64,000 nucleotides of DNA from Thermoplasmata archaeon (lineage in GTDB: Archaea > Thermoplasmatota > Thermoplasmata > Thermoplasmatales > Thermoplasmataceae). A program made the position numbers and the translations under genes. Of this stretch, positions 22,938 to 33,616 are shown one piece after another. Position 1 is the stretch's first letter, and every line of letters begins with the position of its first letter. The stretch is from the NCBI GenBank assembly GCA_021806235.1, contig JAJZXU010000017.1, positions 62,001-126,000 of the forward strand, given 5' to 3'. The notes below the pieces were generated by a model that ran no database searches, was not told the origin of the DNA, and worked only from the letters and a program-made list of their open reading frames with translations.

Positions 22938-23000
22938 TTGTGATTAGCACAGTAAAGTATGCATTAAAAAATAATAAATAATCCATTGATATATATTATC

Positions 23001-23321
23001 ATGAATGAATATTCAATATTCAAGGAAGTAAATGAAGACATAGAAACGCTGGAAAGGCATATAATAATTATAAAAACGTTACTCAAGGAACAGCCCATGG
23101 GAATAATTAAAATGTCCCAGCAAACAGGGATTCCCGAGCATAAAATCAGGTATTCATTGCGGATTCTTGAGCATGAGGAGATAATAGAGGCATCCAGGGA
23201 AGGTGCAATATTAACATCAAATTTTATGACAAATAAAGATAGTATACTTGCTTCAGGTAAAAAGATGTATGAAGGCCTTGAAAACATATATAAGGAATTA
23301 AAAAACATACTTGAAAATTAA
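23001..23321 (+). CDS. Winged-helix DNA-binding regulator
   Basis: The ATG at 23001 gives 106 residues. A helical N-terminus (EVNEDIETLERHIIIIKTLL) is followed by a helix-turn-helix of winged type: PMGIIKMSQQTGIPEHKIRYSLRILEHEEIIEAS, then a wing GAILTSNF and a C-terminal helix. It resembles small archaeal transcriptional regulators that control a neighbouring gene. The GNAT gene nine bases downstream is the obvious operon partner. The effector and target are unknown. Confidence 0.7.
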   Translation: MNEYSIFKEVNEDIETLERHIIIIKTLLKEQPMGIIKMSQQTGIPEHKIRYSLRILEHEEIIEASREGAILTSNFMTNKDSILASGKKMYEGLENIYKELKNILEN

Positions 23322-23329
23322 TATTTGAA

Positions 23330-23881
23330 ATGATTGATATGCAAAATAAATTCAGGGATATATTTCTGGGAAAAAAAATAGATAAGAAATATAAAATAAG
23401 GAAGGCAGTGCCTGTAGATGCCAGGGGCATTATAAACTGCATGCAGAGTGTAATGAATGAAAAAATATACCTTGTAAGTGAATATTACCTGTTAACGGAA
23501 CGTGGGGAACGGGAAAGATTGAAAAATACGGAAGACCTTACACTGGTCTGTGAGGTCAGTTATGATATAGTTGGAGTTTTAACAATTCAGAGGGGTATGT
23601 ATAAAAAAAATAGGCACACAGCAAATCTGGGCATAGCAGTAAAAAGTAATTACAGAAATAATAAAATAGGCACAAATATGATTAAGGAAGCATTAATCTG
23701 GTGCAGGGATCAGGGTATACTTAAGGTAAATCTCGAAGTATTTTCAGTAAATGTTAATGCAATAAAAATGTATAGAAAACTTGGATTTCAGTATGAGGGC
23801 GTCAGAAAAAACCAGTTTATGATAAATGGAAAATATGTAGATGATATACTTATGACATTTTTTACGAATATATTACTTTAA
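23330..23881 (+). CDS. GNAT-family N-acetyltransferase
   Basis: The 183-residue protein has the GNAT fold: KIRKAVPVDARGIINCM at the N-terminal strand-helix, the acetyl-CoA loop in VKSNYRNNKIGTNMIKEALIWC, and the C-terminal SVNVNAIKMYRKLGFQYEG typical of RimI/RimJ-like enzymes. The substrate cannot be told from sequence; protein N-termini or small amines are both possible. It is co-directional with, and nine bases from, a winged-helix regulator. Confidence 0.85.
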   Translation: MIDMQNKFRDIFLGKKIDKKYKIRKAVPVDARGIINCMQSVMNEKIYLVSEYYLLTERGERERLKNTEDLTLVCEVSYDIVGVLTIQRGMYKKNRHTANLGIAVKSNYRNNKIGTNMIKEALIWCRDQGILKVNLEVFSVNVNAIKMYRKLGFQYEGVRKNQFMINGKYVDDILMTFFTNILL

Positions 23882-23943: not shown

Positions 23944-24960
23944 ATGTTTAAGGGTATCCCAAAAATAATAACAAAATATGCTGGCATATTTATCAGTATA
24001 ACGGTTCTGCTTTTTATTATAATAAAATTCATACCGGAAAATATTATTATAAGCAATTACGGTGCCGGTGCATATAATGGGCTGGGATTAAAAGAACCAG
24101 TTTTCATTCAATATTTCTATTTTCTGTTTGACCTTATCACGGGAAATATGGGGAGTGTAAACATCAAAATTTACACTGGAAATACACTGGGTATAGTTGG
24201 TATGTTACTTCCTGAAACGATGGAATTTTTACTCATAAGCTTTCTCGCATCGCTGGCCATATCGTATGAGGTTGGTGTGTTTATAGGCACAAAATACAGG
24301 AATACAAACAACATTAATGTAAACGTATTTCCATTTCTTATATTATACCTTATCACGGGTTTAATTTTATTAACCATTTTTAGCGGTTTGCTTGGAATAT
24401 TCCCCCTTAGATACATAATACCTAATAGGTTTGCAACAGGTTATTCATGGATCGGTTATGCCGGCAATGGAATTTTTATAACAAAACCAACCAATATAAT
24501 AATGCTTGATAGCATAATAAATGGTAATTATACTGTGTTAATAGATTATGTTAAGGGATTTATTTTGCCCTTCATAGCCCTTATAATACCATCAACAATC
24601 TATCTGTGCATATATATAAGCAGGTTAACATCGATTGAATATAATAAAGATTACCTCAAAATTGCATTTATAAGGGGTTTGTATGGAAATGATTATATAA
24701 AGCATATAAAAAGAAACATAGATTCAACAATTATAAGGGAGATGAAGCCAGTATTCATACTTTTTATTGGGGGTATGATAATAATAAGCTATATATATTC
24801 GTATATGAACATCGGTGAGTTTGTAGTATATTCGTTTTTAAATTATAATGGTGGCCTTATGGGCGCGATATATGGTATTTTTATATTAATAGTGATTATT
24901 CTTATATTTGATTTTATTATTGACCTAGCTATGAGGGGTAAAAAATATGTATTACATTAA
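23944..24960 (+). CDS. ABC transporter permease, OppB/DppB-like
   Basis: The 338-residue protein has about six hydrophobic helices and the large extracellular loop between helices 1 and 2 that is typical of OppB. Near residues 230-255 it carries the cytoplasmic EAA-like segment YLKIAFIRGLYGNDYIKHIK, which contacts the ATPase. It would form half of an oligopeptide- or nickel-type import channel. It overlaps the next permease by 14 bases. The only ATPase-like gene beside it lacks catalytic motifs, so how the transporter is powered is unclear. Confidence 0.8.
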   Translation: MFKGIPKIITKYAGIFISITVLLFIIIKFIPENIIISNYGAGAYNGLGLKEPVFIQYFYFLFDLITGNMGSVNIKIYTGNTLGIVGMLLPETMEFLLISFLASLAISYEVGVFIGTKYRNTNNINVNVFPFLILYLITGLILLTIFSGLLGIFPLRYIIPNRFATGYSWIGYAGNGIFITKPTNIIMLDSIINGNYTVLIDYVKGFILPFIALIIPSTIYLCIYISRLTSIEYNKDYLKIAFIRGLYGNDYIKHIKRNIDSTIIREMKPVFILFIGGMIIISYIYSYMNIGEFVVYSFLNYNGGLMGAIYGIFILIVIILIFDFIIDLAMRGKKYVLH

Positions 24961-25750
24961 ATTGCTTATTAAAAATAAATTATCATTATTCAGTATTATT
25001 ATAATAATTTTATATTTCGTGGGTTTCATACTTGATATAATATACCCGGAATATCTTGGCGTTAAAAATATTAATAGCATACTTGCTTTCAGGTTTAAAA
25101 GCGATTTAATCCCGGTTGCCCCATCAATAAAATCATGGCGCCTGTATATGGGTACAACATACTATGGGATTGAAATATTTCCAGCTATGCTTGCTACATT
25201 AAAAATAGATTTTACGATACTTTTGGCATCACTTACACTGTCTATTGTAACCGGTTTTACTCTGGGTTATATTGGGGTAATATCGAAAAGCAAAATTTAC
25301 AGGAGTTCAGTGCTGTATATAAATAAGGTTTTTTTTGATATACCGTATATAATTATGGCACTGCTCATACTTTTTGTTGTAAGGCCATCCATATATGGCA
25401 TAATAATTGCAATATACATAGCATGGTTCCCATTTTATATAAACAGGTCATGCAAAACAAACCGTAAGGAAATAAAATATGCCTTTACAGAAATTATACC
25501 ATATATAATATCTGATATGGGAAGTATGTTTGGGCTTATAACAATAATAACATTCTTAGGATTTTACTACAGTAACCCGTTTATTGTTGATTTAGGCAAT
25601 ATCATGAATGTTAATGGAAATGTTTCAGAATACATATCGTTTGGGGACTGGTGGATTGTAATTTTCCCACTTATTTTTATCATTGTGTTTTTATTATTCA
25701 CATCTATACTGAGTTATAAAATAAAGGTGATTTTAAATGATAAAAAATGA
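24947..25750 (+). CDS. ABC transporter permease, OppC/DppC-like
   Basis: The 267-residue protein has an N-terminal helix (IIIILYFVGFILDII) followed by a five-helix core with the DppC-type start of the core domain (YGIEIFPAMLATLKIDFTILLASLTLSIVTG). The usual Gly-rich EAA loop is poorly preserved (SCKTNRKEIKYAFTEIIPYI), so the copy is divergent. It overlaps the OppB-like gene upstream and the ATPase-like gene downstream by 14 bases each, which points to one operon. Confidence 0.75.
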   Translation: MYYIKLLIKNKLSLFSIIIIILYFVGFILDIIYPEYLGVKNINSILAFRFKSDLIPVAPSIKSWRLYMGTTYYGIEIFPAMLATLKIDFTILLASLTLSIVTGFTLGYIGVISKSKIYRSSVLYINKVFFDIPYIIMALLILFVVRPSIYGIIIAIYIAWFPFYINRSCKTNRKEIKYAFTEIIPYIISDMGSMFGLITIITFLGFYYSNPFIVDLGNIMNVNGNVSEYISFGDWWIVIFPLIFIIVFLLFTSILSYKIKVILNDKK

Positions 25751-27065
25751 TGATGATTTTAGATTTAAAATAGATAATTTCTCATTAAAAACGGATAACC
25801 CGGTAGTTAACAGTTTAAATATAAAAATAAATCCTGATAAAAGCCTTTTAATATTTTCAAATCATAAAAACATATCGGAGTTTTTATCAATTTTTATGCT
25901 TAAAATCCTTAATAAGAATTGCTATTCCGGTGATATTTTCTATGATAATACAGATATTATACAGATTCTAAAAAAAATAAAGAAGTTCAATATAAGGAAT
26001 AAAAATATGTTAATTTTATCAAATATTATGCGTAATGTATTTGTTATCCCTGAAAATGCTATGGATATATTTGATGAATCATTAACAGTATCCGATCAGA
26101 TTCTTAATTTTTTAACCTATAATACAAGAATAAGAATGCTAAATTCAATAATAAGAAGGGAGATGATAAGCCATGATGATATTGAATATCTAATAAAAAA
26201 CTACAGTAATTCCGATAATAAAGATAATTTTCTCATATACTGGGCAACTGAATATGGTGTGCCAAATATCCTTGATGATCTTGATAAAATTTTAAAAACC
26301 GGTGAAAACTTAAATGAAAAACTTATGCGTGTGTTATTATACCAGAAAACTGGGGTCAACCTTGCGGATATCGTGAACTTAAGGGATTATTATAAATATA
26401 AAACAAAAAATAATAACTCAGGGGTTAACAGGCGTGGCAATAATAAGGTTATTGTGGAAGATGAACTGAACTTTATCGATGTTAAATTAAAAAGGAAGGG
26501 CAATGAAGAACTGTTAAAAAATGAAATGAGCAAGCATATAACAGAGTATCTGAAGTTTTTAGATGTAAATGATGGGATTTATATATTAAACAAAAAACCC
26601 GGAGAAATTGAAAAACCGATATTAAAGGAAATATTACTTGTTATAATGATTTTTTCCAATGCTGATATTTTAATTCTTGATAACCCCGGCATAACAGATG
26701 AGGCAAAAAAATTTATGAACAATGTGTATAGAATTCACAAAATATTTAATTTTGCCTATATATGTACTGCATATAATAGCAATGTTATAAAATCTTATTA
26801 TAAATTATTTGATGATGTTAAAATTTTATATGATAGTAATACCGTTGAAGAATGTTCAGTGGAGGAGTTTATTAAAAACCCGTTACATCCATATTCTAAA
26901 TATATATTAAAAAATAATGATAATCCTGATAGTTCTATGGAAAACGGATGCAGCTACTATGATCTGTGTAAATTTGCCATGGCAATATGCAGAAAAAAGA
27001 TACCTGAAGATCATGAAGTAATAAAAAATCATTCTGTGGCATGCTTTCTTTATGATAATAAATAA
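25737..27065 (+). CDS. Degenerate OppD/OppF-like ATPase (pseudo-ATPase)
   Basis: The 442-residue protein can be matched to an Opp ATPase from both ends. The N-terminus NFSLKTDNPVVNSLNIKI fits the first strand. The C-terminus NPLHPYSKYIL followed by a Cys motif (C-x5-C-x6-C ... C, NGCSYYDLCKFAMAICRKK) is the Opp-type tail. Yet the Walker A loop is gone (FSNHKNISE replaces GxxGxGKS), the LSGGQ signature is absent, Walker B reads ADILILDNPG with Asn for the catalytic Glu, and the switch His is replaced (TAYN). The frame is intact over 442 codons, so the loss of catalysis seems to be tolerated or used. Confidence 0.7.
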   Translation: MIKNDDDFRFKIDNFSLKTDNPVVNSLNIKINPDKSLLIFSNHKNISEFLSIFMLKILNKNCYSGDIFYDNTDIIQILKKIKKFNIRNKNMLILSNIMRNVFVIPENAMDIFDESLTVSDQILNFLTYNTRIRMLNSIIRREMISHDDIEYLIKNYSNSDNKDNFLIYWATEYGVPNILDDLDKILKTGENLNEKLMRVLLYQKTGVNLADIVNLRDYYKYKTKNNNSGVNRRGNNKVIVEDELNFIDVKLKRKGNEELLKNEMSKHITEYLKFLDVNDGIYILNKKPGEIEKPILKEILLVIMIFSNADILILDNPGITDEAKKFMNNVYRIHKIFNFAYICTAYNSNVIKSYYKLFDDVKILYDSNTVEECSVEEFIKNPLHPYSKYILKNNDNPDSSMENGCSYYDLCKFAMAICRKKIPEDHEVIKNHSVACFLYDNK

Positions 27066-27073
27066 ATAATTAA

Positions 27074-30000
27074 TTAATTTATTAAATTAAACATTACTAT
27101 ACTTTCTTCTGTTATGGCATTATTCAGTTTTATATGTTTATTATAGGAAAACATAAACTTATTACTTCCTGAGTTTATGTACAGGTGTAGTTTATTAAGA
27201 TCTTTTACTGTATTATTTAGATTGGTGCTATTATATTTTTCATTAAGTTCCGTTATATTTTGTTCCAGATATTTCATGTAAATTGACTGGTTCTTATCTG
27301 TTATATTGAGACTATATGTGCTAAACCCATTGTTATACAGGTGCGTGTAGTTTAATGTTGATCCCAGATATGTATAATACTGTGTTTTATTCATATTGCT
27401 ATTTATTAACATATTGTATATGGGCATCGGATTCGATCCGTATTTTTCGTTATCTGCCATGAAAGCAGAGTTTTCGGTAATTATGGGATAACTTGACCCG
27501 TTTATAATATGCTCAAGATTTGTGGTAAACGCTGTTATATTTTTCATATTGCTTATCTGGTTTACAAAAATCGGCATTACAATATTATTTCCCTTATACT
27601 TATAATCTTTAGTAGCATTATCATATTTTATACCGTATTTACTGCCATCATTGTTTACAAATGATTTCCATAGATCCCTGGACTTGGTTAAATTATAATT
27701 ATTGCCAAAGGCATAATAAAAAGCCTCCCTTACAGTGGCATTTGAAAACAAATTGTAGGGCATATTTGAATATGAATACTTATTCAATTCTTTTATGCTT
27801 ACATTTGCATTGAAATTATAGAGTTCTGTATAATTAATGGTGTTGGCATATGAATTTACATCGCTCAGCTGTTTTATATATGGAGCGTATATGGATGGGA
27901 ATTCCGCTATCTGGGTTACATTTAATCTTAGGTCCTGATAAATTTCAGATAGGGCGCTTTTATAGGTTATCATTACCATATTTACTTTTGGAACTGGATC
28001 TCCTGGTCTACCTTCAAAATATGGATTTTTAATTAAAGTCACTGAGGAATTTTTTACAGATGAATAGATTTCGTATGGACCATTGGATATTACATTATTT
28101 AAAGAGTACTGATTATATGTGCCATTTTTAAATTCGTTAAAACCCTTTTCCGACCATGTAAGATTTCCATATTTTGCTATATATGAACCTGAAGTAATAA
28201 ATGCACCGGGAGATGATAATATATTAAAAACCAGATTCCTGCTCATGGGCCTATTGAAATGCAGTGTTATATTATCTGTTGAATTATTTACCGTTATTGC
28301 ATTAGCAATGTTTGTATAATTATTCGTTTTATAATAGTTGCCCGGCAACAAATACTGTGCCAGGAGCCACCCTGGAGTCTGTGGTGTTTTATTAACCAGT
28401 AATAAATCAGCGGCTATTGAATATGCGGCATCCCACGCATTTACCTTATTACCATTCTGGAAAAATGCCTTATTATAAATGTGGAATGTATAATCTTCGC
28501 GGTTGCCTGAAATGCCACCGTTGGAACTGGATGGCAGATAGGCCGCAATTTCAGGTGTGTATGATGTGTTATTATGGTATACCAGGAACTGCTCTGTATT
28601 CATCAATATCTGTAAATCGGATTTTGAGTATGCAAGTCCGGGATTCAGGGTATTATACGGTGATGTTGAACTATATGTTATTGATTCTACATTATTATTT
28701 ATGTAAAGGCTTCCATTGCTGTATACCGGTATATCCATATAGTAATTGGTTCTGTATATGCCATTTGATGCATTTATATCGCCGGTTATCCCCGCATTAA
28801 TTGCTCCGTTAATACTAACTGCTATTGTTGCATTTGTAGAATTTAAATATTTTATTTTTAAATTATTTTCATATAATAATTTTGAATTGGGATAAATTAA
28901 AAATTTTGAACTGTTAATAGATATTGAATCACCCTTATTATAAAGTATAGAGGCATTGATATAATTAAAATATGTGCTGTTAAGGGTTTTTACAGGGACT
29001 GATGATGTAAAGTTAATTACATCAGTTTTATTCAGTTTCAGTATTGTTGTACCTGTTGCATTATGTGATTTGTGATTTAGAATATATGAACCACCGAAGG
29101 GCAGTTCAATAGATGTGTTTTTTAATACCCTTATCGTGGAACCGTTTGAAATATAAAAATTATCACCCTTAGCTGAGAAAACATTAGAATTGCTGTAATG
29201 TATAGTAGATGTTCCTGCAAAGAAGATAGAATGATTATTTATATCCATAGCTTCCGTATAGTTTTTATATTTTATATACTCTATTTCATGGCCATTGTAT
29301 GTGTTATTGTAAATATGAGTACCACTTTTATATGTAACATTATTATAATCTGTTACATTGACATTTATGTATTTATTCAGCAGTGATGCTGAATATGTAA
29401 CAAGTTTTAATGTATACATGCCGCCGGATAAATTTTTCAGTGCAAAACTATTATTTTTGTTCACATATAACCGGGATGATGGGTTAAATTTATATGGTAA
29501 ATTATATGTTTTTACCAGAGATCCGTTTTTGTATACAAACATTGTCTGTGCTATAACCTGATAACTGCTATTCTGTGGTTCACTGGAATATGAGGCTGAA
29601 AGATTAATATCTGTACCTGACAAGAAAATATTGGAATTTGGCACACTTGGTGCCCGTGAGTAGTTGTTTATATATATTATTCCACTGGCCGTCTTATTAT
29701 TATTTAATGATGCGACATATACAGGGATAAAGGTATTGTTTTTGTAAAACGAATTTCCAAAATTAATAGAGTAGCGGATATAATATATGCCTGGATTATT
29801 ATAAATATGGCTGGCAAATATTTTATCACCTGATGATTTTATCAGGCTTTCAGAATTATCACCCCAGTGTATTTCCGCATATTTAAACGGTTCATTGGTA
29901 TGTAATGTTATATTATATGTATCGCCCGCTGTTATATAATTTGCAGCAGAATCAATTTTAGCACTGGGAACTGTATTTGAGGGGTGAAAAATAGACAGGG

Positions 30001-30112
30001 CAGCAAATGATGATAATAATACTATTAAGATAATAATTATGGCATACCATTTATTTTTTGTTGATTTGGGTTTGCTCGGTGATGTTTTTGGCTCTGGTAT
30101 GTCATAATCCAT
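27074..30112 (-). CDS. Membrane-anchored extracellular solute-binding protein, family 5-like
   Basis: From the ATG at 30112 the product has 1012 residues. A short cytoplasmic Pro/Ser/Lys-rich segment precedes one transmembrane helix (about 23-45). Next comes a PKD-like beta domain (IHWGDNSESLIKSSGDKIFASHIYNN), a long Asn/Ser/Tyr-rich region, and then from about residue 500 a solute-binding family 5 domain (TEQFLVYHNN, EIAAYLP, NAWDAAYSIAADLLL, NGPYEIYS, LIKNPYFEGRPGD, FSNATVREAFYYAFG). Family 5 proteins feed Opp/Dpp transporters with peptides. Its gene converges on the Opp-like permease operon, so it is the likely receptor. An N-terminal anchor replaces the bacterial lipoprotein anchor. Confidence 0.75.
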   Translation of the reverse strand: MDYDIPEPKTSPSKPKSTKNKWYAIIIILIVLLSSFAALSIFHPSNTVPSAKIDSAANYITAGDTYNITLHTNEPFKYAEIHWGDNSESLIKSSGDKIFASHIYNNPGIYYIRYSINFGNSFYKNNTFIPVYVASLNNNKTASGIIYINNYSRAPSVPNSNIFLSGTDINLSASYSSEPQNSSYQVIAQTMFVYKNGSLVKTYNLPYKFNPSSRLYVNKNNSFALKNLSGGMYTLKLVTYSASLLNKYINVNVTDYNNVTYKSGTHIYNNTYNGHEIEYIKYKNYTEAMDINNHSIFFAGTSTIHYSNSNVFSAKGDNFYISNGSTIRVLKNTSIELPFGGSYILNHKSHNATGTTILKLNKTDVINFTSSVPVKTLNSTYFNYINASILYNKGDSISINSSKFLIYPNSKLLYENNLKIKYLNSTNATIAVSINGAINAGITGDINASNGIYRTNYYMDIPVYSNGSLYINNNVESITYSSTSPYNTLNPGLAYSKSDLQILMNTEQFLVYHNNTSYTPEIAAYLPSSSNGGISGNREDYTFHIYNKAFFQNGNKVNAWDAAYSIAADLLLVNKTPQTPGWLLAQYLLPGNYYKTNNYTNIANAITVNNSTDNITLHFNRPMSRNLVFNILSSPGAFITSGSYIAKYGNLTWSEKGFNEFKNGTYNQYSLNNVISNGPYEIYSSVKNSSVTLIKNPYFEGRPGDPVPKVNMVMITYKSALSEIYQDLRLNVTQIAEFPSIYAPYIKQLSDVNSYANTINYTELYNFNANVSIKELNKYSYSNMPYNLFSNATVREAFYYAFGNNYNLTKSRDLWKSFVNNDGSKYGIKYDNATKDYKYKGNNIVMPIFVNQISNMKNITAFTTNLEHIINGSSYPIITENSAFMADNEKYGSNPMPIYNMLINSNMNKTQYYTYLGSTLNYTHLYNNGFSTYSLNITDKNQSIYMKYLEQNITELNEKYNSTNLNNTVKDLNKLHLYINSGSNKFMFSYNKHIKLNNAITEESIVMFNLIN

Positions 30113-30131
30113 TCTTACACTAATGTAAAAG

Positions 30132-30146
30132 CAAATATTTAAATTT
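30132..30146 (-). promoter_or_regulatory. Probable TATA box of the solute-binding protein gene
   Basis: AAATTTAAATATTTG on the minus strand lies about 25 bases upstream of the ATG at 30112. It resembles the ATTTAAATTTAAAT element of the convergent permease operon, so the two halves of the transporter may share control. Confidence 0.45.
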
Positions 30147-30218
30147 TCTTTAACCACAAAAGGGAGATTTACTTATATGTGATATCATAACCGGGGATCA
30201 AAATCTGTGCGTGTAAAA

Positions 30219-31841: not shown

Positions 31842-32726
31842 TTATAGGAAACCAGCTTTCTGTAATGTTAATAAATCTTCTGTAGTTAGTTGTTCACCGG
31901 CCTTAAATTTCTCATATAAAGCTGATGCTTTTTCCTGCAATTCAGATTCTTTCTCCTTCTTTTTTGTTACCTTAGTTTTATTTCTGATAGAATATATAGC
32001 CTTTTCAAGATCCCTTAAATCATTTTTGGATTTAATAAAAGCTGCATGCTCTGACTCAGATTCTTTACTGTGTTTTATAAATATTTCGTGGTTTTCATCT
32101 GCTTCTTTCCTTACATTATCAAGCTGCTGCAACTCCTCGTTTATTTCATCACTCAGTTTTGATATCTGATTTGATAAATCCTCTATTTCCTTTTTAAGTG
32201 ATTCACCAAGGGCTCTTTCACTGGTTGTTTTGTCCGTTAACTCTTTTATATCCTTATTCTTTAAAAGTTCCTCTTCTCTCTGAGTTTTTGCTTTCTTGAT
32301 TTCATTAGTTAACCTTCTTATGTCAACAATAATCTTATTCTCATCTTCCTTTGTAAGCTCAGTTGTTTGCTGTCTTTTTTCAAGGTACTGAAGTTCCTTT
32401 TCCTTCATTTTTATATCCTTTAATCCAAGGCCAGCACCAAAACCAGATTTGAGTTCTCTTAAATTCTTCTTAAGGTCTGATAAATTTTTGTAATGCTCTT
32501 CTTTTTCGTCTCTCAAAACTTTTATTTTGTCTATTAACTCATTTTTCTCAGCTATCTTTTCTTTCGCATGTTCACGCATATCGTGTGTTTTCTGATTAAG
32601 TTCATCACGTTTTTTTGCATATTCCTGCGCTTTGGCATTGGCTTCATCTCGCTTTTTAATGTGGAGTTCTACCTCATCTCTGATAGTTTCCTTTTTTGTT
32701 TCAAAATCTTCTAAAAGGTCGGTCAT
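31842..32726 (-). CDS. Archaeal coiled-coil protein (COG1340-like)
   Basis: From the ATG at 32726 the 294-residue product is almost wholly coiled coil: heptad-rich Glu/Lys/Leu sequence over residues 5-255, with a short Gly-rich break (SGFGAGLGLKDIKMKEKEL) near 95. A C-terminal segment EKFKAGEQLTTEDLLTLQKAGFL is conserved in this archaeal family. The function is unknown; these proteins are cytoplasmic and have been compared to SMC-like or phosphatase-linked helices. An IscB element has inserted right in front of the start codon, so the original promoter has been moved or replaced. Confidence 0.75.
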   Translation of the reverse strand: MTDLLEDFETKKETIRDEVELHIKKRDEANAKAQEYAKKRDELNQKTHDMREHAKEKIAEKNELIDKIKVLRDEKEEHYKNLSDLKKNLRELKSGFGAGLGLKDIKMKEKELQYLEKRQQTTELTKEDENKIIVDIRRLTNEIKKAKTQREEELLKNKDIKELTDKTTSERALGESLKKEIEDLSNQISKLSDEINEELQQLDNVRKEADENHEIFIKHSKESESEHAAFIKSKNDLRDLEKAIYSIRNKTKVTKKKEKESELQEKASALYEKFKAGEQLTTEDLLTLQKAGFL

Positions 32727-33616
32727 CAGGATACCTCCAAGGATACCCACCTATTCAGGGGTGGGAGGAATTGAAGGTTAAAGTTCAGCCCCTTGCCATA
32801 CTTCCTTAGCTGTACCTTTTTTACGTTTACATCCATCTTTTTTCCCCCTTTTTTAATAATCACTTGTTTGCCAACACTATGGATTCCCACTACGTCCCAT
32901 TCCTCTTTCTGGAATAGAACAGGAGCCCCCAGTTGCAATGAATACATTCTCTTCCGTATAGAAGGTTTAAAGCCCTTCCTGTTCAGCTGCAGGCAGCGGT
33001 TGTTCCTTCTTCTCTGGCTTACCATAAACAGTGATGTTCTCTTCTGTGTTGATCCACCGGCTATGATAAATGCATCATTAGTATGTGTTTTCTCTATTCC
33101 AAGGGAAATACGGTTTTTCTTTGTTATGGACCCAGGAGTGGTTTCACATCCCCGGAGCCATGCTATTTTTTGCTTTACAACATTCATAAATGGTGCTTCC
33201 TTATCTCCAGAGAGGAGTTCTGATCTTTCTGTCACCACTGAGAAATCTGTGTACTTAGAGCCGGGATCTGTTCCAAGTTTAACCTGCTGTTTTGCCTCTC
33301 CTGTTGCATAGAGTAGCTGTATAGTGAATGGTGATCTCTGGATAACCTTTGCTCTGCCTTTCTTCAGAAGTTTTCTTGCCTTGGTTGGTGCTGCTGGCAT
33401 TAATGGTTGGTTTCGCATGTTTAAAACGGGAACTCTCAGGTCCCGTACAGTCATGCCTGACTGTAGGTCCACATCGGGATTGTTAGAAGAGGTTTTTAAA
33501 CCCGGCACACTGAGAGTTTTCTCTCTGTTTAATGCATGGTCACAGTTGCCACGGGTTTGTGGAGCATCCGTAGGTGTGTATGTATTTCTCCGATCTAACT
33601 TCTGCTTTTCTTTCAT
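32726..33616 (-). CDS. iscB: Internally deleted IscB (PLMP + RuvC-I + RuvC-III, no HNH)
   Basis: The 296-codon frame (the IscB homology starts at a second ATG, 33454) has the PLMP domain (VPVLNMRNQPLMP ... ARKLLKKGRAKVIQRSPFTI), RuvC-I with Asp117 in LGTDPGSK, then jumps at about residue 138 to the post-HNH part (FMNVVKQKIAW). It continues into RuvC-III (LGIEKTHTNDAFIIAGG, His178/Asp181) and the C-terminal domain (NRCLQLNRKGFKP ... WDVVGIHSVG). The bridge helix, RuvC-II Glu and whole HNH are missing, against 400-500 residues in active IscB. It should be unable to cut DNA, yet the frame is intact. The last codons are read through the right-end hairpin, and its TGA shares a base with the next gene's ATG. 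Confidence 0.8.
   Translation of the reverse strand: MKEKQKLDRRNTYTPTDAPQTRGNCDHALNREKTLSVPGLKTSSNNPDVDLQSGMTVRDLRVPVLNMRNQPLMPAAPTKARKLLKKGRAKVIQRSPFTIQLLYATGEAKQQVKLGTDPGSKYTDFSVVTERSELLSGDKEAPFMNVVKQKIAWLRGCETTPGSITKKNRISLGIEKTHTNDAFIIAGGSTQKRTSLFMVSQRRRNNRCLQLNRKGFKPSIRKRMYSLQLGAPVLFQKEEWDVVGIHSVGKQVIIKKGGKKMDVNVKKVQLRKYGKGLNFNLQFLPPLNRWVSLEVS

Follow-up and report, generated by a model that had tools for sequence, protein, structure and literature searches.

A catalytically dead but selectively maintained DppD, lacking its DppF partner, suggests that the Dpp complex of three acidophilic archaeal genera has ceased to be an ATP-driven importer

Degenerate ATP sites are well known among ABC proteins, where they usually lie beside a working site. 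Transport without ATP by the membrane part of an ATPase-less ABC-type system is exemplified by solitary BioY, and importers that share an ATPase are expected to have coupling helices on both of their permeases. MsmK is one ATPase that serves several sugar importers (PMC4519317). A closer counterpart of the locus considered here is E. coli DppBCDF: according to the published account (PMC12136057), DppB docks DppD, with a salt bridge between K243 and E114, and DppC docks DppF; each dock is a coupling helix located between TM4 and TM5; and the DppD residues just after the Q-loop face the DppB coupling helix. The same account reports that loss of the Cys ligands of either [4Fe-4S] cluster disassembles the complex. 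In this analysis the E. coli subunits (L108) are aligned with their archaeal counterparts using a residue numbering that matches that of PMC12136057. Among the titles and abstract openings listed by searches of open-access literature, nothing was found on the gene described below, nor on any Opp or Dpp importer that has a dead, conserved DppD and no DppF.

The gene in question lies within a 64,000-nucleotide stretch of archaeal DNA (the whole of which is termed here the window) from a genome of 1,929,012 bases. It occupies positions 25737-27065 of the forward strand, an open frame of 442 codons running from ATG to TAA, and encodes what profile comparison, motif alignment and dN/dS indicate is a pseudo-ATPase--that is, a catalytically dead DppD orthologue of 442 residues. 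Homology to DppD extends over the full length: hhalign aligns 12 dead with 6 live sequences (100%, E = 1.2e-46) over 437 columns, which take in an insert described below. Both its position and its sequence mark the frame as the orthologue of DppD from an insert-bearing Dpp transporter that occurs family-wide. The original prediction, made from the window alone, held that Walker A, the signature, the Walker B Glu and the switch His are all replaced while the 442-codon frame and a C-terminal HPYSKYIL/Cys motif are kept; alignment to intact orthologues bears this out and adds the Q-loop to the losses. Where intact orthologues have the Walker A sequence GESGCGKSV, the window DppD has SNHKNISEF (25857-25883); the Q-loop MIFQEP has become VIPENA (remnant VIPENAM, 26043-26063); the ABC signature ELSGGMQQR aligns with EIEKPILKE (26604-26630); the Walker B remnant DILILDNPGITD (26664-26699) has LILDNP in place of LIADEP, keeping the Asp and changing the catalytic Glu to Asn; and the switch ITHD has become CTAYN (remnant ICTAYNSN, 26760-26783). 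No Pfam match to ABC_tran (PF00005) was obtained for this protein up to an E-value of 0.1. Retained are the HPYSKYIL (oligo_HPY) motif (26886-26909), which scores 42.0 against a cut-off of 37.6 with NCBIfam TIGR01727 and 26.0, just below a cut-off of 27.1, with Pfam oligo_HPY, and a four-Cys tail (26946-27044), whose Cys 405, 411, 418 and 436 align with the [4Fe-4S] ligands C284, C290, C297 and C315 of E. coli DppD. (All of these features are on the forward strand.)

Two permease genes precede this frame on the same strand: a DppB-like permease (23944-24960), assigned by synteny, six hydropathy peaks and a weak Pfam match (24.8 bits against 26.4), and a DppC-like permease (24947-25750), assigned by profile matches, synteny and about six hydropathy peaks. 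The two permease frames overlap by 14 nucleotides, as do the frames of the DppC-like permease and the dead DppD; hence a predicted overlap with both permease genes holds for the adjacent one, while the other overlaps only its fellow permease. Further upstream on the forward strand, as identified by Pfam and synteny, are an HTH regulator (22986-23321) and a GNAT acetyltransferase (23330-23881), both of which persist in relatives that have lost the entire transporter. Downstream and convergent, on the reverse strand, is a gene for a surface protein of the SBP_bac_5 type (27074-30157, E = 4.5e-19; termed here the SBP). In intact operons (L057, L055) the order is HTH, GNAT, (radical SAM), DppB, DppC, DppD of about 520 residues, DppF of about 490 residues, a small ORF and the SBP; L053, L054 and L103 show rearrangements of it. 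The dead clade has HTH, GNAT, DppB, DppC, dead DppD and convergent SBP, with neither DppF nor the small ORF; the HTH-GNAT-B-C-D order with a convergent SBP is found both in the dead genomes and in some intact ones.

Several other genes at or near these loci may be mentioned. The small ORF of the intact operons (L057 5553-5897, L053, L055, L103) encodes about 111-136 residues, overlaps the end of DppF, is partly hydrophobic, has no Pfam match and is missing together with DppF from the dead clade. A radical-SAM gene (PF04055; L057 11051-12013 and homologues) adjoins several intact Dpp operons and occurs in 19 of 77 genomes of the family; because none of the 15 dead-clade genomes carries it, it was rejected as a partner there. 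In relatives (L099, L100, L101, L105 and L106) the HTH, GNAT, radical-SAM and RtcB genes adjoin one another without a Dpp operon at that place. Within the window, a conserved, coiled-coil-like DUF7121 gene (PF23435; 31842-32750, reverse strand) is syntenic across the three dead-clade genera, and an ORF at 32726-33616 (reverse strand) matches half of the RRXRR domain model (PF14239, E = 2.1e-22); near the latter the G+C content is raised to 38%, and we take it to be an IscB-type transposon-associated protein that is possibly truncated.

The dead form occupies the syntenic place, without a stop in frame, in all 15 genomes of three genera of acidophilic archaea: 10 of 10 in g1, 3 of 3 in g2 and 2 of 2 in g13. 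(One match row for G025 lists a TAA, the match running beyond the end of an ORF that is itself open.) When the 117 genomes of the order were searched with a profile of the dead form (A2; 12 rows, with G024, G022 and G020 left out), these 15 scored at least 229 bits and all others at most 125, the best match outside of the clade being an intact DppD. The motif survey of DppD covers 30 rows, of which 15 are dead, 9 degenerate and 6 live, the last two groups being part of the 43 genomes that have an insert-bearing match; neither the second degenerate copy of G070 (C6) nor the cut copy in G072 is among them. In the permease tree the dead-clade permeases form a single clade with 100/100 support; G009, whose DppC-class ORF is short and to which no DppB ORF is assigned, was left out. 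(Permease counts are out of 14, because the G022 contig ends before the permeases, and SBP counts are out of 13, since the contigs of G027 and G055 stop short of it.) Alignment of orthologues from relatives, which the original prediction had proposed as a check, thus finds the loss to be common to the whole clade: catalytic loss in DppD is shared and ancient. DppD length in the clade falls from about 520 residues to 442, 375-385 and 308, and no Pfam or NCBIfam model matched two of the short members.

No replacement for the lost ATPases was found. An intact insert-bearing DppD (E up to 1e-60) occurs in 0 of the 15 dead-clade genomes versus 43 of 77 genomes of the family (a figure that also counts degenerate copies), and a long DppF likewise occurs in 0 of the 15; at the window locus there is no DppF, and thus not the two ATP-binding subunits of an intact transporter. 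In the DppF search, 5 of the 15 genomes match only by way of a fused Opp ATPase of about 710 residues at about 41% identity. Three other Opp systems are encoded in the window's genome, and all six of their NBDs have complete motifs. Hence the proposed check for a second, intact Opp ATPase came out both ways: such systems are present, and none of them supplies this family's DppD or DppF. One intact Opp ATPase of this genome (L039 5969-6757, a reversed locus) has 262 residues and stops before the Cys tail; beyond it there are stop codons, yet the sequence is still oligo_HPY-like.

Selection on the dead gene was measured as dN/dS (Nei-Gojobori) in five close species pairs, all within g1 and g2, which yielded 0.150 (G000/G024), 0.158 (G000/G023), 0.189 (G021/G020), 0.144 (G028/G026) and 0.139 (G002/G003), with Fisher p-values ranging from 0.0026 to 4e-43; neighbouring genes fall in a similar range (permeases 0.07-0.18, SBP 0.09-0.17). 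In a neutral simulation of the frame, 6 of 500 copies were open at 0.06 substitutions per site and 0 of 500 at 0.12 or more, and real copies are still open at a dS of about 1. Constraint on the dead gene is real; because it changes faster than its neighbours in amino acids (between G000 and G023, 73% identity versus 87% for RtcB), that constraint is looser than theirs. Purifying selection, open frames and clade-wide sharing reject simple decay to a pseudogene: all 15 copies are dead at the same place without a stop, with dN/dS of 0.14-0.19, and the pattern that the original prediction had named as a sign of decay--intact motifs in close relatives and stop codons elsewhere--was not found.

As judged from the alignments, the weight of constraint has shifted away from the catalytic core and onto the insert. 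This insert of roughly 86 residues (residues 136-221; 26142-26399, forward strand), with the pattern N..RRE..K.G..LR..Y, harbors 9 of the 11 residues that are invariant in 12 dead rows, namely N136, R140, R141, E142, K204, G206, L215, R216 and Y219. For 9 dead rows (a thinned set) and 6 live ones, mean pairwise identity within the insert is 46% dead-dead versus 30% live-live, whereas from the signature to Walker B it is 29% dead-dead versus 85% live-live and, over the Q-loop plus about 25 residues, 49% dead versus 69% live. Because identity is inverted in this way, and because most of the invariant residues lie there, the dead DppD would seem to be conserved mainly for its insert. (AlphaFold2 gave a mean pLDDT of 43 for the insert by itself and of 33 for the whole window DppD from a two-row alignment.) The insert is kept in every dead row, whereas the Cys tail is not: four Cys are present in 6 of 15, the window's among them, and none in 8 of 15 (7 g1 genomes and G054), G055 being cut by a contig end.

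The permeases retain one dock and lack the other. In DppB the coupling-helix (EAA) segment is altered but kept (residues 232-258; 24637-24717, forward strand), the window protein having R at the E. coli K243 position and keeping H254 and N258. DppC is without its coupling helix in all 14 of the dead-clade genomes counted; a short loop marks the deletion in the window (residues 167-180; 25445-25486, forward strand), and live and full-length degenerate rows have the helix. The position of K243 is basic (R or K) in 12 of 14 dead-clade DppB sequences and that of E114 is Asp in 12 of 15 dead DppD rows (Asn in the window protein, Asp in its 96% orthologue L037); T239 is replaced in 14 of 14, D235 is kept in 4, H254 in 6 and N258 in 8 of 14; and in g13 both salt-bridge partners are lost. 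By this comparison the docking surface for the dead DppD on DppB is only partly kept; the dead DppD may nevertheless still be seated there. The joint loss of DppF and of its DppC dock is the strongest hint, as read from these alignments, at what has taken place. The missing DppF, the lost DppC helix and the high conservation of the insert all go beyond the original prediction.

Each of the 13 dead-clade loci that extend as far as the SBP has kept it, and in the window it is still detectable as SBP_bac_5. A GWxPDxxxPTDY segment, kept in 5 of 5 live SBPs, is lost in 13 of 13 readable dead-clade ones, which are missing another part of the second lobe as well. E. coli DppA carries GWTGDNGDPDNFF where this segment sits, and we take the segment to be part of the peptide site in this class of SBP. 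Of two intact control SBPs in the window's genome, one keeps GWLPDYSDP and the other (C9) lacks the motif, so that absence of the motif alone is no proof of lost binding.

These observations make it, on balance, somewhat probable that half of the motor has been deleted and that the other half has become a pseudo-ATPase scaffold on DppB, within a complex that has given up ATP-driven import. DppF would have been removed along with its dock on DppC, and DppD kept as a pseudo-ATPase on the DppB coupling helix; the remaining complex would consist of DppB, DppC, dead DppD and a surface-exposed SBP-like protein. ATP-driven alternating access is very unlikely in such a complex, because DppF and its dock are gone and the dead DppD has no standard nucleotide-binding motif. 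Because all four genes are strongly conserved, the complex presumably has a job. The dead DppD could serve as a cytosolic scaffold or cap, with the insert as a functional surface that probably binds a cytosolic partner, and the complex as a whole as a fixed receptor or anchor connecting the cytoplasm with the SBP-like protein at the surface. The four-Cys tail, kept in g2 and in the window's lineage, may hold a [4Fe-4S] cluster that stabilizes the assembly, as the cluster of E. coli Dpp does; g13 and a sublineage of g1 have dropped the tail. That an importer was converted only once, in the ancestor of the three acidophile genera, into an ATP-free, non-transport receptor or anchor with the insert as its functional part is a fuller version of this reading for which the chances appear about evenly balanced.

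The original prediction had offered two readings: either the permeases are powered by a different ATPase, this protein being an adaptor, or the complex has turned into something that is not a transporter. The latter fits better, since the SBP too has lost its GWxPDxxxPTDY segment (13 of 13), although any new role is conjectural; the former is disfavoured by the missing DppF, by the lack of an insert-bearing or long replacement in 15 genomes and by the loss of the DppC dock in 14 of 14. A static membrane complex is also judged more likely than a passive transporter. For the latter--DppB-DppC with the SBP acting as a facilitator, a proton-coupled carrier or a gated pore, and dead DppD as a plug or lid--both permeases do keep about six hydropathy peaks and are under purifying selection, the SBP is retained at the 13 loci that reach it, and solitary BioY is a precedent; but loss of the SBP segment together with the further second-lobe segment, the lack of any coupling ion indicated by the sequences and the intact Opp systems for peptides that the window's genome has kept make it unlikely. 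More doubtful still is a borrowed motor, in which an intact pair of Opp ATPases from another locus would drive the permeases in trans and dead DppD would be an adaptor or regulator. Such sharing exists (MsmK, PMC4519317), six complete NBDs in three Opp systems are at hand in the same genome, and the DppB coupling-helix segment is kept; but with the DppC coupling helix gone in 14 of 14 there is nowhere for a second ATPase to dock, the dock on DppB would already hold the dead DppD, and the genome's other ATPases lack this family's insert.

Two further explanations are considered improbable. That the [4Fe-4S] tail is the working part, as an iron-sulfur sensor or a membrane electron-transfer subunit, is suggested by the 6 of 15 dead rows, the window's among them, that have Cys at all four of the E. 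coli ligand positions, but the tail is missing from 7 g1 genomes and G054 while the insert is kept everywhere, and in E. coli the complex needs the cluster in order to assemble (PMC12136057). Least probable of all is that the operon is slowly dying and that the short forms (385, then 308 residues) are stages of loss: the fall in length from about 520 to 442, 375-385 and 308 residues, and the absence of the whole transporter from several relatives outside of the clade, are what such a process might leave, but 15 ORFs without a stop, dN/dS of 0.14-0.19, no open neutral frame among 500 at 0.12 substitutions per site, a gene order kept in three genera, and constraint on the permeases and SBP as well all speak against it.

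Milder degeneration is seen in nine genomes of three other genera (g4, g18 and g19), in which LSGGQ and the switch His are lost from both DppD (9/9) and DppF (9/9); Walker A is kept in all nine DppF and in most DppD (one ORF lacks the region and one has GESGSAKS), the Walker B residues are mostly acidic, and full-length DppC proteins keep their coupling helices. The degenerate operons are at L090 7548-10542, L092 7285-9806, L093 3790-6947, L094 5720-8727, L095 4219-7226, L096 6911-9915, L097 7275-10265 and L056; five of the seven g18/g19 loci inspected adjoin genes labelled in this analysis as 2-oxoacid:ferredoxin oxidoreductase. AU tests do not reject a single clade of dead plus g4 (p = 0.42) or of dead plus g18/19 (p = 0.083), but do reject g4 plus g18/19 (p = 0.027) and all three degenerate groups together (p = 0.010). 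Hence catalytic loss appears to have arisen at least twice, with long branches as a caveat; three independent losses (g4, g18/g19 and the dead clade), as might be read from the tree, is a number that these tests do not support. With Walker A kept and signature and His lost in both ATPases, these relatives may resemble an earlier stage.

What is unusual here is that the second ATPase has been deleted along with its dock, while both permeases, the SBP and one dead ATPase remain under selection. A single family thus offers a graded series--intact; signature and His lost in both ATPases; dead without DppF; tail lost; 308 residues--that makes the change from pump to non-pump, and the roles of ATP-free ABC complexes, directly testable. 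It also exposes a gap in annotation: the two short members that escape both Pfam and NCBIfam would be taken for hypothetical proteins, and it is the window copy, through its HPY/Cys tail, that provides the link.

Set against known systems, the dead-clade locus resembles E. coli DppABCDF (PMC12136057) in the orthology and order of DppB, DppC and DppD, in the DppB coupling-helix segment and in the four-Cys tail; unlike it, the locus has no DppF, no DppC coupling helix and no DppD catalytic motif, has an extra insert of about 86 residues and has lost the SBP segment. With the intact operons of its own family (L057, L055, L053, L054, L103) it shares synteny, the insert, the permeases and a convergent or neighbouring SBP, but those operons have a full Walker A, signature, Walker B and switch His in both DppD and DppF (6 of 6 examined) and have the DppC coupling helix. 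Importers with a shared ATPase (MsmK, PMC4519317) likewise have permease genes without a working ATPase of their own, but retain no dead one. Finally, heterodimeric ABC transporters with a degenerate site, such as TM287/288 and CFTR, also have one NBD without catalytic residues; these, however, keep a second competent site and ATP binding, whereas the dead clade has no partner ATPase gene.
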